Shown here in pieces: positions 50,058 through 55,272 of a stretch of DNA of 64,000 bases. A program made the translations under genes and the position numbers. Position 1 is the stretch's first letter, and each line of letters opens with the position of its first letter. The notes under the pieces are model-generated. The model searched no databases and was not told where the DNA came from. It saw only the letters and a list, made by a program, of their open reading frames with translations. The DNA lies in contig CP003083.1 of assembly GCA_000306725.1 (NCBI GenBank), positions 2,344,042 to 2,408,041 of the forward strand, in the 5' to 3' direction. The DNA comes from Methanolobus psychrophilus R15 (GTDB lineage Archaea; Halobacteriota; Methanosarcinia; Methanosarcinales; Methanosarcinaceae).

Positions 50058-51113
50058 TCACTGCTTTCTGGGAGTGTATATGCAGTAAGGCTCCTCGGCC
50101 AGGTAGTCTCCGGTTGCCGCATAGGCACGTGCCCGGCATCCTGCGCATACTTTGTTGTATTCGCAGTCCCCACACTTTCCTTTGAGTCTTGATGGATCTC
50201 TCAGGTCATTGAATACCTGCGAGTTCTCCCATATATCTTTGAAGTTTTGTTCCTTTATGCTCCCGGCGAGGGCAGGAAGGTATCCACAGGGGTATACTTC
50301 TCCAGTGCTTGATACAAAGCAGAAGCCTGTGCCTCCAAGACATCCTTTTGTCATGGCTTCATAACCATGGGTCTTTACTGTTATCTCGATGCCTTCCTTC
50401 TTTGCCCGCTGGCGCATTATCCTGAAATAATGAGGTGCGCAGGTTGCTTTTAGCTGTATCTTTGCTGTCTTCTGCTGGTCATAGAACCAGTTCAGCACCC
50501 TCTCATATTCAACAGGAGGTATCTCCTCCTCTTCCAGTTCCTTGCCCCTGCCAGTGGGCACGAGCAGGAATATGTGCAGGGCCTCAGCTCCAATCTCAGT
50601 TGCCATTTCAAGGATGGCAGGTATTTCAGTAAGGTTACGTTTTGTGATGGTGGTATTGATCTGGAAGCCGATGCCTGCATCCTTGATGGCATCTATGCCG
50701 CACATAGCTCCGTCAAAGGCTCCGGGCATGCACCTGAAATCATCATGGGTCTGCGGGCTTGCTCCGTCAAGGCTCACACTTATCCTTCTTACCCCTACAT
50801 CCTTCAGATGTGAGGCGACCTCAGGAGTTACAAGGGTGCCGTTGGTTGCAAGGGCTACTGAGAGACCTTTACCAACCGCGTAGCTGGCAAGGTCATAGAT
50901 GTCCTCCCTTACGAGCGGCTCACCGCCGCTGAGTATTAGTATAGGGTTTCCTATCTGCGCAATCTCATCGATAAAGCGCATGGCTTCTTCGGTCGTAAGC
51001 TCGCCGGCTGGCTTCCTGGAAGTCGATGATCCCCGGCAATGTCTGCAGGAAAGGTTGCAGCCTGCTGTTGTTTCCCATGCTATGAGTCTTGGAGGTTTGG
51101 CCATGTTGATCAT
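50058..51113 (-). CDS. ahbD: Radical SAM heme b synthase AhbD
   Basis: A 351-residue radical SAM/SPASM enzyme. The N-terminus APPRLIAWETT-like (PPRLIAWETTAGCNLSCRHC, with CxxxCxxC at about 19-26) is characteristic of AhbD, which converts iron-coproporphyrin III to heme b by two oxidative decarboxylations. GGEPLVREDI and a SPASM-type C-terminus (CGYLPAL, CGDCEYNKVCAGC) hold auxiliary Fe-S cysteines. It is the first gene of the operon; its ATG lies about 35 bases from a TATA element, with no ribosome site, suggesting a leaderless mRNA. The deacetylase AhbC is not in the window. Confidence 0.88.
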   Translation of the reverse strand: MINMAKPPRLIAWETTAGCNLSCRHCRGSSTSRKPAGELTTEEAMRFIDEIAQIGNPILILSGGEPLVREDIYDLASYAVGKGLSVALATNGTLVTPEVASHLKDVGVRRISVSLDGASPQTHDDFRCMPGAFDGAMCGIDAIKDAGIGFQINTTITKRNLTEIPAILEMATEIGAEALHIFLLVPTGRGKELEEEEIPPVEYERVLNWFYDQQKTAKIQLKATCAPHYFRIMRQRAKKEGIEITVKTHGYEAMTKGCLGGTGFCFVSSTGEVYPCGYLPALAGSIKEQNFKDIWENSQVFNDLRDPSRLKGKCGDCEYNKVCAGCRARAYAATGDYLAEEPYCIYTPRKQ

Positions 51114-51307: not shown

Positions 51308-51424
51308 ATTAACGCCTTAAACCTTGCATTTGCATGTACGTGGGTGGTCCTGGCAGTATATGCCTTTCACCTTGTGCGTACTCGCATCTCTCTTAACAGG
51401 GAGCTTAGGAATATTGACAGATAA
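51308..51424 (+). CDS. CcmD-like small membrane protein with possible ATT start
   Basis: A 38-codon frame with one hydrophobic helix (ALNLAFACTWVVLAVYAF) followed by a basic tail (HLVRTRISLNRELRNIDR), the layout of CcmD, which in system I cytochrome c maturation links the CcmABC complex to CcmE. ccmE follows 25 bases later. The frame opens just after a TGA, and the only initiator with good spacing from GGGGTGA is ATT at 51308. An ATG at 51304 is out of frame by one base. A one-base error is the alternative. Confidence 0.5.
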   Translation: MNALNLAFACTWVVLAVYAFHLVRTRISLNRELRNIDR

Positions 51425-51449: not shown

Positions 51450-51830
51450 ATGGATAAGAAACACAAAAGTGTCCTTGCAGTCGCTTTTATTGTTATCGTG
51501 GGTATTGTAGGTCTGTGGAATGTGGACCTTTCACAGGGATATCTGCTGGTCTCCGAATTGCAGGAAGACCCGGATAAGTACGTAGGGCAGAATGTCAATA
51601 CTATGGGTAATATCAAGAATGGCACTCTCAATGTTTCGACATCGGGGATCTCGTTTTTGCTGGAGGACCCTGAGGACGAGGCCTACGAGCTGGAAGTAGT
51701 ATATACAGGATCCCTCCCGGCAAACCTTGTCGAAGGCACGGGCCTGAGTCTCAGCGGCAGGATGGTCTCTGAGAACAAGATAGAGGCTAATAAAATAGTT
51801 ATGGGATGTCCTTCAAAGTATAGTGAGTGA
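51450..51830 (+). CDS. ccmE: Cytochrome c maturation heme chaperone CcmE, archaeal CxxxY type
   Basis: A 126-residue membrane-anchored protein with an N-terminal helix (residues 8-25) and an OB-fold domain: YLLVSELQEDPDKYVGQNV, SGISFLLEDPEDEAYELEVVY and LPANLVEGTGLSLSGRM (shown in part). Bacterial CcmE binds heme through a His in HxxxY; here the motif reads CPSKY, the CxxxY variant known from archaea and some bacteria. It receives heme for transfer to c-type cytochromes outside the membrane. Its stop overlaps the next start by four bases. Confidence 0.9.
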   Translation: MDKKHKSVLAVAFIVIVGIVGLWNVDLSQGYLLVSELQEDPDKYVGQNVNTMGNIKNGTLNVSTSGISFLLEDPEDEAYELEVVYTGSLPANLVEGTGLSLSGRMVSENKIEANKIVMGCPSKYSE

Positions 51831-52726
51831 ACCGAAAACAGGACGGTATGATGGAAATAGAGAACCTTGAAGAATACCAGTTAATAAAGGCTTCAATGGA
51901 CGGGCTTGTCGCTTCGATGGAGGACAGCTCGAAGATGAAAAAAATGCTGCTACATGTTTGCAGTTCCGGTGGCAAGAGCATCCGGCCTATCATACTGTTG
52001 CTGTGCACTGAAATATGCGGAGGGGAACGTGATAAGAGCGTTAATGCAGCCCTTGCTATCGAACTTATCCATTCTGCGTCTCTGATACATGATGATGTAC
52101 TTGATGATGGTATTATACGCAGGGGTGTTGAGTCAGCCCCTAAGAAATATGGTGTTCCGGCTGCTATATTATGCGGGGATTTCCTGATTTCCAAAGCCGT
52201 CTCCCTAATTTCTTCCTATGGCACGGATTCAGTGCTTGAGTTCGGGAGGGCCGGAATGTATATGGCTGAAGGTGAGACCATTGATATCTCAAGTTCCTGT
52301 CCGGACTTTGGCAGGAAGAACTATTTCGAATGCATAAGCAAAAAGACGGCCTCTCTTTTCGCGGCAAGTGCTGTCATAGGTGCCTATGTTGCAGGCGCTG
52401 ACCGGGAAACGGCAATGAAATTCAGGTCCTTTGGTGAAAACGTGGGCAACGCATACCAGATAGTCGATGACCTGCTGGAATATCTCAATAGGCTTGAGGA
52501 TAAGCAGTCAACTTATGAGTCAGTGACCCTGCCGCTTCTCTACAGGAAGAGCATGGGGCACGAGGAAGCGGTGAGCCTGACAGTGAAGGAAGTGCTCCAG
52601 CACGTAAAAAAAGCAAAAGATGTCCTGCAGGGCTTTGGAGATTCAGTTGCAAAGGATAAGCTTCTCCTGATCACCAACCTGATCACAATTGATATGCTTC
52701 CAGCCAGCGTCCTTGAAATGAGCTGA
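51827..52726 (+). CDS. Trans-polyprenyl diphosphate synthase, possibly for methanophenazine side chain
   Basis: A 299-residue isoprenyl diphosphate synthase. GGKSIRPIILLLC begins the core; the first Asp-rich motif is HDDVLDD, and the second reads DDLLEY, with Glu for the last Asp of DDxxD. Internal ATGs at 51848 and 51851 are possible starts, but the ATGA overlap with ccmE favours 51827. Small residues before the first motif suggest a medium or long chain. A related Methanosarcina mazei enzyme makes geranylfarnesyl diphosphate for methanophenazine; that role is inferred here. Confidence 0.85.
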   Translation: MNRKQDGMMEIENLEEYQLIKASMDGLVASMEDSSKMKKMLLHVCSSGGKSIRPIILLLCTEICGGERDKSVNAALAIELIHSASLIHDDVLDDGIIRRGVESAPKKYGVPAAILCGDFLISKAVSLISSYGTDSVLEFGRAGMYMAEGETIDISSSCPDFGRKNYFECISKKTASLFAASAVIGAYVAGADRETAMKFRSFGENVGNAYQIVDDLLEYLNRLEDKQSTYESVTLPLLYRKSMGHEEAVSLTVKEVLQHVKKAKDVLQGFGDSVAKDKLLLITNLITIDMLPASVLEMS

Positions 52727-52771
52727 GTACTTGTTCTTAACCAATTTATACATTTATTATCAGGTGTTTTC

Positions 52772-53962
52772 ATGAAAGTTTATGATAAGTCCGTAATAAA
52801 GGTAAATGCGAGCACAGAAGATGGAAAAGTTGTGCTTGATACCCAAGGGCCATTGTCTGCGGTGGCAAAGCCTATAGTAAAGCGCATAAATAGTATTTTC
52901 CAGGAAGAAAAACCAATTCTTTCCGATGATGAGAGCATAATCTTTTCCACATGGGTCCCGCCCATGCCGGGAGAGGTGTTCAACAGGATGATCAATGCGC
53001 AGGTGGCCTCTATTCTTAAGAAGAGGGTTCCTGACCAGTTCTCTATCGGCATTACAGGCAGATGTCCCAATAACTGCATACACTGCGGTGCTGCGGGAAT
53101 AGTTGCTGACCCGGAGTTGACCCTTGATGAGATCGATCGGACAGTTGACCGGGCGCTTGACCTTGGTAGTTATTATATCTCCTTTGACGGTGGAGAAACA
53201 ATGCTTCGCAAAGACCTTTCCCAGATGGTTGCTGCTGTTGACAAGAGCCGTGCTGTAGCTACCTGCTTCACATCAGGTTTCGCTATGAATGAGCAGAAGG
53301 CCGGGGAACTTAAAGAGGCAGGCCTTTTTGCTGCACACATGAGCCTTGACAGTCCGGAAGAAAAGGAACATGACCGGGTCAGGGGACGTGAAGGAGCTTA
53401 CAGGGACACTGTCAACGGCGTGAAAAATGTGCTGGATGCTGGCATCTTGGCCGATCTTTTCGTAGTTGTGTCGCCCCACAATATCGATCATCTTGACGGT
53501 TTCTACCAGTTTGCGGCTGATATGGGCATGCATGAGATGTCCGTGTACGAGATCGTGGCTGTGGGACGCTGGCTTGAACATGAGGATGAAGTGATAACTG
53601 AGAAAGATGTAAAGCGCCTGGCGGACTTCCAGAAGTCTGCAAACAGGAAGCCGGAGGGGCCAAGGGTGACCGCTTTACCCTATTTCATGGGGCCGGACCA
53701 GTTCGGGTGTTTTGCAGGCAGGCGCTGGATGCATGCAACTGCAGGAGGGGACGTACTTCCCTGCGCTTATACGCCTCTTTCCTTTGGGAACATCCGCGAG
53801 GAAGACCTTGGAGTAATCTGGGAGCGTATGGGCAGGCATGCTGCATACAAGTCCTCTGCAGATTACTGCATGATGCGTAATCCTCAGTTCAGGGAAAGGT
53901 ACATCCATACTATTCCGGAAGGTGAAAAGCTTCCCTTAAGGCTGGACCTTCTCAAGGAATAA
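52772..53962 (+). CDS. Radical SAM protein with SPASM-like C-terminus, function unknown
   Basis: A 396-residue protein. The radical SAM cysteines are in GRCPNNCIHCG (CxxxCxxC, about residues 95-102), followed by SFDGGETMLRKDL. The C-terminus has GCFAGRRWMHATAGGDVLPC and ADYCMMRN (shown in part), consistent with an auxiliary cluster. About 90 residues before the core (KVYDKSVIKVNAST...) are unusual. It starts 45 bases after the polyprenyl synthase on the same strand, so it probably belongs to the same pathway. Its sequence does not match AhbC. Confidence 0.8.
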   Translation: MKVYDKSVIKVNASTEDGKVVLDTQGPLSAVAKPIVKRINSIFQEEKPILSDDESIIFSTWVPPMPGEVFNRMINAQVASILKKRVPDQFSIGITGRCPNNCIHCGAAGIVADPELTLDEIDRTVDRALDLGSYYISFDGGETMLRKDLSQMVAAVDKSRAVATCFTSGFAMNEQKAGELKEAGLFAAHMSLDSPEEKEHDRVRGREGAYRDTVNGVKNVLDAGILADLFVVVSPHNIDHLDGFYQFAADMGMHEMSVYEIVAVGRWLEHEDEVITEKDVKRLADFQKSANRKPEGPRVTALPYFMGPDQFGCFAGRRWMHATAGGDVLPCAYTPLSFGNIREEDLGVIWERMGRHAAYKSSADYCMMRNPQFRERYIHTIPEGEKLPLRLDLLKE

Positions 53963-54147: not shown

Positions 54148-55272
54148 ATGCGTAAAACATACAAGTTCCGTATTTATCCTAATAGATCACAACAAAAACA
54201 GATGGAGCGGAGTTTGGAAATATGCAGGCAAGTATATAATCGTACACTATCGGAACGAAAAGTCGCTTATGAAATGTCAGGAGAAATATTATCTAAATAT
54301 ACCCTCAACAAACTACTTCCGGAATGGAAAAAAGAGAATCCCGAATATAAAGAAGTGTTCTCCCAAACCCTTCAGGAAGTACAGGAAAGGGTAGACATTG
54401 CATTCAAGCACTTTTTCAGGCGTGTTAGGAACGGAGAAAAGCCCGGTTATCCCCGGTTTAAAGGCAAAGGATGGTATGACAGTTTCACATATCCTCAAAT
54501 GGGATTTAAACTAGAGGGAAATCTTTTATATCTCTCTAAAATCGGGAAAGTCCGTGTAAAAGTGCATCGTGAAGTTGAAGGCGATATTAAAAGAATAATT
54601 GTAAGACGTTCAGCATGTAAAAAATGGTATGTTTCAATAACCACGGAAGCAGAGGATATTCCTATTCTCAATAAATATATTGAGCATGTTGTGGGCATCG
54701 ATGTAGGATTATCTAATTTTGCTACATTGTCCGATGGTACAACAATACCTAACCCTCGTTTTTTCCGTCTGGAAGAAAAAGAACTCGCAAAGGCCCAACG
54801 CAAGTTATCCAAAGCTGCAAAGGGTTCTCCTGAACGTAAAAAAGCAATAAAAGTAGTACAAAGAGTACATGAAAGAATAGCAAACAAGCGTTATGATTTC
54901 ATTCATCAATTAAGCAGACAACTAGTAGATGATTATTCCTTCATTGCTTTTGAAGATCTGAACATCAAAAACATGCTTAAAAATCATTGTCTCGCAAAAA
55001 GCATATCAGATGCCGCATGGAACATGCTGATCTCTACAACAAAGTACAAGGCTGAAAGTGCTGGTTCTTTAGTTGTATCAGTTAATCCTGCGAACACTTC
55101 TAAGATGTGCTCAAGATGTGGTCTGTTGGTGGATAAGACATTAGCAGATAGAACACACAAATGTAATAGCTGTGGTCTTATCTTAGGCCGGGACCACAAT
55201 GCGGCTATCAACATTCTCAGATTGGGATTGCAATCTGTCGGCATAGAAACCGTAGAAGTCCGCGCACTTTAG
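54148..55272 (+). CDS. tnpB: IS200/IS605-family TnpB, RNA-guided nuclease type, no TnpA
   Basis: A 374-residue TnpB with an intact catalytic set: RuvC Asp185 in VVGIDVGLSN, Glu269 in IAFEDLNIKN and Asp349 in LGRDHNAAIN. A zinc ribbon has Cys321, Cys324, Cys339 and Cys342. The N-terminal KFRIYPN and the helical region are typical. TnpB proteins are RNA-guided DNA endonucleases, ancestors of Cas12, using an RNA from the element's right end. No tnpA transposase lies nearby, so the element is non-autonomous or was moved in trans. It ends with TAG, rare among host genes here, and codons are more AT-rich than in neighbours. Confidence 0.92.
   Translation: MRKTYKFRIYPNRSQQKQMERSLEICRQVYNRTLSERKVAYEMSGEILSKYTLNKLLPEWKKENPEYKEVFSQTLQEVQERVDIAFKHFFRRVRNGEKPGYPRFKGKGWYDSFTYPQMGFKLEGNLLYLSKIGKVRVKVHREVEGDIKRIIVRRSACKKWYVSITTEAEDIPILNKYIEHVVGIDVGLSNFATLSDGTTIPNPRFFRLEEKELAKAQRKLSKAAKGSPERKKAIKVVQRVHERIANKRYDFIHQLSRQLVDDYSFIAFEDLNIKNMLKNHCLAKSISDAAWNMLISTTKYKAESAGSLVVSVNPANTSKMCSRCGLLVDKTLADRTHKCNSCGLILGRDHNAAINILRLGLQSVGIETVEVRAL

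Follow-up and report, generated by a model that had tools for sequence, protein, structure and literature searches.

Background

Methanophenazine is described in the literature as the membrane electron carrier of Methanosarcina-type methanogens and, by inference, of the marine ANME-2 archaea. Published accounts assign it to the Methanosarcinales and ANME-2a-c, and menaquinone to the Methanoperedenaceae and ANME-1 (PMC7327174, PMC9012536); methanophenazine has also been suggested for the Methylarchaeales (PMC9478090). In 2018 the pathway of its synthesis was referred to as unidentified, in a paper that proposed UbiA-type genes, as a general class, for the synthesis (PMC6315138); a 2021 paper, which names geranylfarnesyl diphosphate as the precursor, described it as still not deciphered (PMC8546582). 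In M. acetivorans, ccmE has been placed in a putative operon with a geranylfarnesyl-type synthase (PMC9084895), and the pairing of these two genes was thus already known; a term search for "radical SAM" in the text of that paper gave no hit. Our literature search, with preprints and most subscription journals outside its reach, found no paper that proposes the genes discussed here.

The ccmE locus

The window is the whole stretch of DNA that was analysed, 64,000 nucleotides of the Methanolobus psychrophilus R15 genome (3.07 Mb, a single contig). On its plus strand, a CcmD-like ORF, ccmE, a polyprenyl diphosphate synthase gene and a radical SAM/SPASM gene, here called A, follow one another in this order. 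The cytochrome c maturation heme chaperone gene ccmE (51450..51830) is the sole PF03100 match in the genome (51.8 bits, cut-off 24.6), and its product ends in C-P-S-K-Y, the archaeal CXXXY form, so that profile and motif both identify it as a CcmE. The synthase (51851..52726) is predicted to be of the geranylfarnesyl (C25) type (NF040627 GFPS_Meth, 355.5 bits; PF00348, 169.6 bits), and A (52772..53962) encodes 396 residues that are 98% identical to the A protein of a named Methanolobus MAG. Profile matches thus bear out the preliminary description in that ccmE, the polyprenyl synthase and the radical SAM gene are real and all on the plus strand, and the 45 bases it had counted between the latter two were found as well. 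The ATGA overlap it had reported between ccmE and the synthase was not. The ccmE stop codon is TGA at 51828-51830, and the only synthase start overlapping it is GTG at 51827, which gives GTGA. The open frame does extend to this GTG. Synthase homologues, however, begin at an in-frame ATG (M-E-I-E / M-N-I-E), which here is at 51851, and the NCBIfam model match likewise begins at residue 9; since this start is conserved, we place the synthase 20 bases past ccmE, without overlap.

The three genes had been taken as one unit. Their common direction and a linkage above chance agree with this, but the unit is longer, as the CcmD-like ORF precedes ccmE. This ORF (51308..51424) would encode a 38-residue membrane protein and scores 46.9 bits with the CcmD model TIGR04391 of NCBIfam (cut-off 24), which is also passed by 9 of 10 relatives, the exception being L047 with 21.3 bits. 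It has no ATG, GTG or TTG start; the frame opens with ATA TGT ATT, and translation likely starts at AUU or AUA. An ATG is lacking in Methanolobus and present in many relatives. A CcmD-like frame lies directly upstream of ccmE in 58 of 58 ccmE loci; six of these are copies of the window's own gene, and in three the match has E > 0.1. In each of five groups, differences are most frequent at codon position 3, with amino-acid changes also common, and the frame is likely coding. PMC9084895 states that archaeal genomes seem to lack ccmD throughout; the ORF described here is contrary to this, and our literature search on archaeal ccmD returned nothing besides that paper.

Upstream of the unit, the opposite strand carries heme genes, including the heme b synthase gene ahbD (600.5 bits with the AhbD model, cut-off 500). 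This gene (50058-51113) diverges from the ccmE unit, an arrangement also seen in at least 25 of 68 named A loci (L042-L109), many of the other contigs ending early. Downstream of A, a TnpB-type transposase gene (54148-55272; OrfB_IS605, Cas12f1-like TNB) is followed by genes that by eye resemble an A-type ATPase operon.

Radical SAM protein A

Protein A belongs to the radical SAM superfamily by its profile score (PF04055, 77.1 bits against a cut-off of 29.5), by cysteines C98, C102 and C105, and by its structural model, which matches solved radical SAM enzymes. The three cysteines make up the CX3CX2C motif of the SAM-binding [4Fe-4S] cluster (53063..53086, plus strand), present in all A-type sequences compared. 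The SPASM domain profile is matched as well (PF13186, 31.2 bits against 21.5, over 46 of 67 positions). The seven-cysteine motif of SPASM domains serves two auxiliary clusters. It was not found in A, where past the barrel only C313, C331 and C366 (53708..53869, plus strand) are conserved, in at least 90% of 48 aligned members; these probably bind one auxiliary Fe-S cluster. The protein consists of an N-terminal beta-beta-beta-alpha segment (about residues 1-65), an STWxPPxP linker, the radical SAM barrel and a short SPASM-like end. About 90 residues lie outside Pfam coverage, so the N-terminal segment is indeed unusual, as had been noted. Predicted alone, residues 1-88 form three strands and two helices (pLDDT 83.7), for which no PDB match with E <= 0.001 was obtained (136 with E <= 10).

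The AlphaFold2 model of A (pLDDT 92.2) has its best PDB match in SkfB (Z 26.4, rmsd 3.5, 291 residues aligned). Further matches are SuiB (Z 24.5, rmsd 3.3, 299 aligned), BlsE (Z 23.1, rmsd 3.5, 269 aligned), PqqE (Z 23.0, rmsd 2.8, 252 aligned), MoaA (Z 21.7, rmsd 3.5, 273 aligned) and GDGT-MAS (Z 19.9, rmsd 3.6, 249 aligned). Most of these matches cover residues 65-379 only, and they do not point to a particular substrate. SkfB and SuiB are peptide modifiers, as would be expected if A and its paralogs B and C (see below) were peptide (RiPP) maturases with incidental gene linkages. However, the Z scores of BlsE, PqqE, viperin and MoaA are only slightly lower (21.6-23.1), the partners of A-C are prenyl enzymes, and the N-terminal segment alone is without a significant PDB match; we regard a RiPP maturase as a weak reading of A and give it very little credence.

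Conservation of the neighbourhood

In all, 86 distinct A genes were fetched, of which 82 had enough upstream DNA to be judged and four were too short. Both ccmE and the synthase lie upstream of A in 49 of the 82 loci, the synthase alone in 10, ccmE alone in 13 and neither in 10, which gives 59 loci with the synthase and 62 with ccmE. Synthase-only loci come from Methanothrix, Methanimicrococcus, Methanofrustulum, one Methanosarcina and relatives, and ccmE-only loci are ANME-2-type. As A is joined now to ccmE and now to the synthase, it is the constant member of the locus, and its link to ccmE is secondary. A specific role for ccmE found no support.

With ccmE upstream in 62 of 82 loci and ahbD close by on the other strand, A might be a heme or cytochrome maturation enzyme like these neighbours, and it does weakly resemble AhbD and NirJ2 (111.6 and 114.3 bits, cut-offs 500). 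Yet A is kept beside the synthase without ccmE in 10 of the 82 loci, and A-C are missing from the menaquinone-gene (mqn) families of the same order, although the Methanoperedenaceae, the likely identity of one of them, bear multiheme cytochromes according to PMC7327174. For these two reasons, a heme role was rejected as the main reading of A and appears highly unlikely.

The best NCBIfam model for the synthase, that of the Methanosarcina geranylfarnesyl diphosphate synthase (NF040627), is matched over 282 of 285 positions, with a score below the curated cut-off of 600 bits. A Methanosarcina-type genome (G185) likewise has a synthase gene between ccmE and A; its product is 53% identical to the window synthase and exceeds this cut-off with 614.8 bits. 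With a threshold of E 1e-60, relatives of the synthase were found in 86 of 236 genomes of the phylum, including the mqn-bearing family f9. Because GFPS_Meth-related synthases are thus also found in mqn-bearing families, the linkage of synthase and A indicates carrier side chains generally.

Paralogs and the compact cluster

A belongs to an unnamed family of three paralogs; in the window's genome, B is 41% and C 35% identical to A. There, B is the last gene of an operon that also contains a UbiA gene and a gene for a geranylgeranyl-reductase-like flavoprotein, in the order UbiA-reductase-B. Of 12 named B loci fetched, 11 have the same operon and one has reductase-B; the operon was also found in two Methanosarcina-type genomes. 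In the B locus of family f2, B is not beside UbiA and the reductase, and in two Methanothrix-type loci the operon is broken up (in L143, UbiA is at a distance of about 7 kb). The f3 locus begins too near B to be judged.

The reductase reaches 120.3 bits with the GG-reductase subfamily, below the cut-off of 158.8, and resembles archaeal lipid reductases. One could therefore suppose that the set modifies membrane lipids, at the ether lipid tail or headgroup, and not a redox carrier: UbiA and the reductase belong to the lipid enzymes of archaea, whose lipids are also substrates of radical SAM enzymes, and one structural match of A is GDGT-MAS. This would leave both the exclusion of mqn genes reported below and the linkage of A to a C25-type synthase unexplained, and for hydroxyarchaeol, a lipid with a similar distribution, a different enzyme has been assigned. 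We consider a lipid-modifying set unlikely.

In a phylogenetic tree, A groups with B in the Methanosarcinia (support 98), and the C clade (support 99) includes genes of the outer families; this tree was built quickly, was rooted at the midpoint and drew a long-branch warning, which limits what it says on whether the A/B duplication came before the outer families. The CX3CX2C motif was looked for in sequences assigned to A, B or C by their best hit: all 102 A-type and all 20 B-type sequences have it, and so do 17 of 19 C sequences. The two exceptions are from G185 and G203, both of the Methanosarcina-type genomes examined. Here C (L155:8133-9347 and L158:7745-8998) is without the motif, yet the protein is retained; the copy in L155, from G185, has lost all six conserved cysteines. 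By these sequences, C is a probable pseudoenzyme in Methanosarcina-type genomes and may act as a non-catalytic partner.

Eight genomes were fetched from families f11, f17 and f21 (G064, G073, G082, G091, G098, G106, G112 and G117). Each of them has two A/B-like genes, C, the reductase and a fourth radical SAM gene, D, close together, with other genes interspersed in the f17 members G073, G091 and G098. Genes for a UbiA-type and an NMT1/THI5-fold protein adjoin this cluster in seven; in the eighth, the contig ends there. Membership in the UbiA and NMT1/THI5 families was tested in G106 and G091 and judged by eye from sequence likeness in the others. The UbiA protein of G106 scores 45 bits (cut-off 34.2), and that of G091 has a weak NCBIfam match only and none in Pfam. 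In two f15 genomes, C and D are found together with a single A/B-like gene and a weaker reductase match. The window's genome contains one D ortholog, 54% identical, at G000:C1:1488763; for the NMT1-fold protein, the search there gave only a match with 23% identity and no ortholog.

The NMT1/THI5-fold protein (about 293 residues; L127:14281-15162, L128:7588-8481 and similar) heads the cluster in families without McrA. By eye it has no obvious signal peptide, and it may be an enzyme, not a transporter part. Genes that by eye are CbiMNQO-like cobalt transporter genes (L140, L142, L152) were seen a few kb from D (own genome) or C (Methanothrix-type and ANME-2-type), and ThiC is also near D. The A-like gene of G195 is divergent (branch 1.36), and its neighbour encodes a B12-binding radical SAM protein.

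Distribution across the phylum

The 236 genomes of the phylum were surveyed for strong matches to A-C (best E <= 1e-99) and D (E <= 1e-80). For A-C, 28 of 85 matching genomes were dropped, with best E values of about 1e-45 to 1e-50 that we took as another radical SAM family; for D, G085 (9.5e-49) and G268 (2.0e-41) were dropped from 57. With these thresholds, A-C are present in 57 genomes, D in 55 and both in 54. A-C occur without D in G133, G134 (63% complete) and G195, and D without A-C in G234, an mqn-bearing f9 genome with a D homologue at 47% identity.

MqnA/MqnD (PF02621) were found in 72 of the 236 genomes and overlap with A-C in 1 of 57, G133. The latter has a single B gene on a 12.3 kb contig that groups with an f3 gene of the window's order, and we suspect contamination. 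Within this order, all 42 genomes of families f1-f3 carry A-C and none carries mqnA/D, whereas none of the 18 genomes of families f4-f5 carries A-C and 17 carry mqnA/D, the missing one being 61% complete. From its place and its mqn genes, f5 appears to be the Methanoperedenaceae. The window's genome (G000) gave no PF02621 match. Fisher values are tiny but overstated, as they treat related genomes as independent and few independent events lie behind the counts.

McrA is present in 127 of the 236 genomes, and 44 of these carry A-C (42 in the window's class, G077 and G133). A wide occurrence in methanogens without cytochromes or methanophenazine, which the preliminary description had named as evidence against its idea, was not seen. 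A-C are absent from 83 McrA-bearing genomes, 25 with mqnA/D and 58 with neither, as expected of cytochrome-less methanogens, with mqnA/D and McrA scored in place of cytochromes. Its expectation of co-occurrence with methanophenazine-containing species only holds in part: A-C track the non-mqn families of the order, but 13 of 57 carriers have no McrA match. Among the best 80 of 268 matches in a scan of named relatives, two are labelled Euryarchaeota only (L073, L115), and the others are Methanosarcinales or Methanothrix/Methanosaeta.

The 13 McrA-less carriers could mean that the product is a prenylated carrier other than methanophenazine, at least in the McrA-less families with the compact cluster. 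Their A/B copies branch apart from the Methanosarcinia copies, and by analogy the NMT1 fold recalls the fold used by MqnA/MqnD. Orthologs of C and D are nevertheless common to the Methanosarcinia, where methanophenazine is the known carrier, and we regard a different product as quite improbable.

Proposed role in methanophenazine biosynthesis

The synthase upstream of A, the UbiA-reductase-B operon, the compact cluster, the co-occurrence of A-C with D, the exclusion of mqn genes and the carrier assignments in the literature lead us to favour a role in methanophenazine synthesis. The distribution is as expected of genes of a carrier pathway, and the C25-type synthase, UbiA and the reductase match methanophenazine, which makes these proteins candidate enzymes. 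On balance, we think that A is probably one enzyme of a set whose product is a prenylated membrane electron carrier, in the Methanosarcinia most likely methanophenazine. The set would comprise radical SAM proteins A, B and D, C as their partner, a UbiA prenyltransferase and the geranylgeranyl-reductase-like flavoprotein. The idea that a radical SAM enzyme acts in its synthesis thus gains from the distribution, the operon and the cluster elsewhere, with A a candidate from sequence, and is weakened by the McrA-less carriers.

Starting from the observed linkage, co-occurrence, near-exclusion of mqn genes and intact Fe-S ligands of A and B, we infer product, substrate and order of steps as follows. 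The synthase beside A would make the C25 diphosphate, and radical SAM steps would build or modify an aromatic head; ring building or tailoring by A, B and D is a natural guess. UbiA would join chain and head with formation of an ether, as other archaeal UbiA enzymes form ethers, and the reductase would saturate one double bond to give the dihydro side chain that methanophenazine carries.

Several observations count against this proposal. The nearest folds of A include peptide modifiers, 10 of 82 A loci have neither neighbour, and 13 carriers are without McrA. B stands apart from UbiA and the reductase in some loci, G133 and G234 are exceptions to the distribution, and no NMT1-fold ortholog was found in the window's genome. 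More tentatively, and with less than even confidence, we suggest that the core of the methanophenazine pathway consists of A, B and D, partnered by C, together with UbiA and the reductase, that the ring might arise by anaerobic radical chemistry unrelated to the phz genes, and that the cluster in McrA-less families might point to methanophenazine-type carriers outside methane metabolism. The short gene list obtained from linkage and mqn exclusion makes the pathway testable in M. acetivorans, and the gene set would serve as a genomic marker for archaea making the carrier.

Comparison with known systems

With AhbD, NirJ2 and PqqE, A has the SAM-cluster motif in common, and with PqqE also the barrel fold. 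It differs from them in scores far under the equivalog cut-offs (for PqqE, 97.9 against 381.35 bits), in the extra N-terminal segment and in having only three conserved cysteines past the barrel. The synthase is like the Methanosarcina geranylfarnesyl diphosphate synthase in its full-length match and its place beside A, and unlike it in scoring 355.5 bits against a cut-off of 600, its chain length being predicted by sequence. The bacterial phenazine (phz) pathway, compared by its chemistry alone, would give the same kind of ring by non-radical reactions, unlike the proposed set. To the futalosine menaquinone pathway (MqnA-E and a prenyltransferase), the set is alike by analogy: both have radical SAM enzymes, a UbiA-family enzyme, a substrate-binding-fold protein (here in the compact cluster) and a carrier as product. 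A-D match no Mqn model among the matches listed, and in contrast to genomes with that pathway, the window's genome has no mqnA/D, the two gene sets being nearly exclusive.
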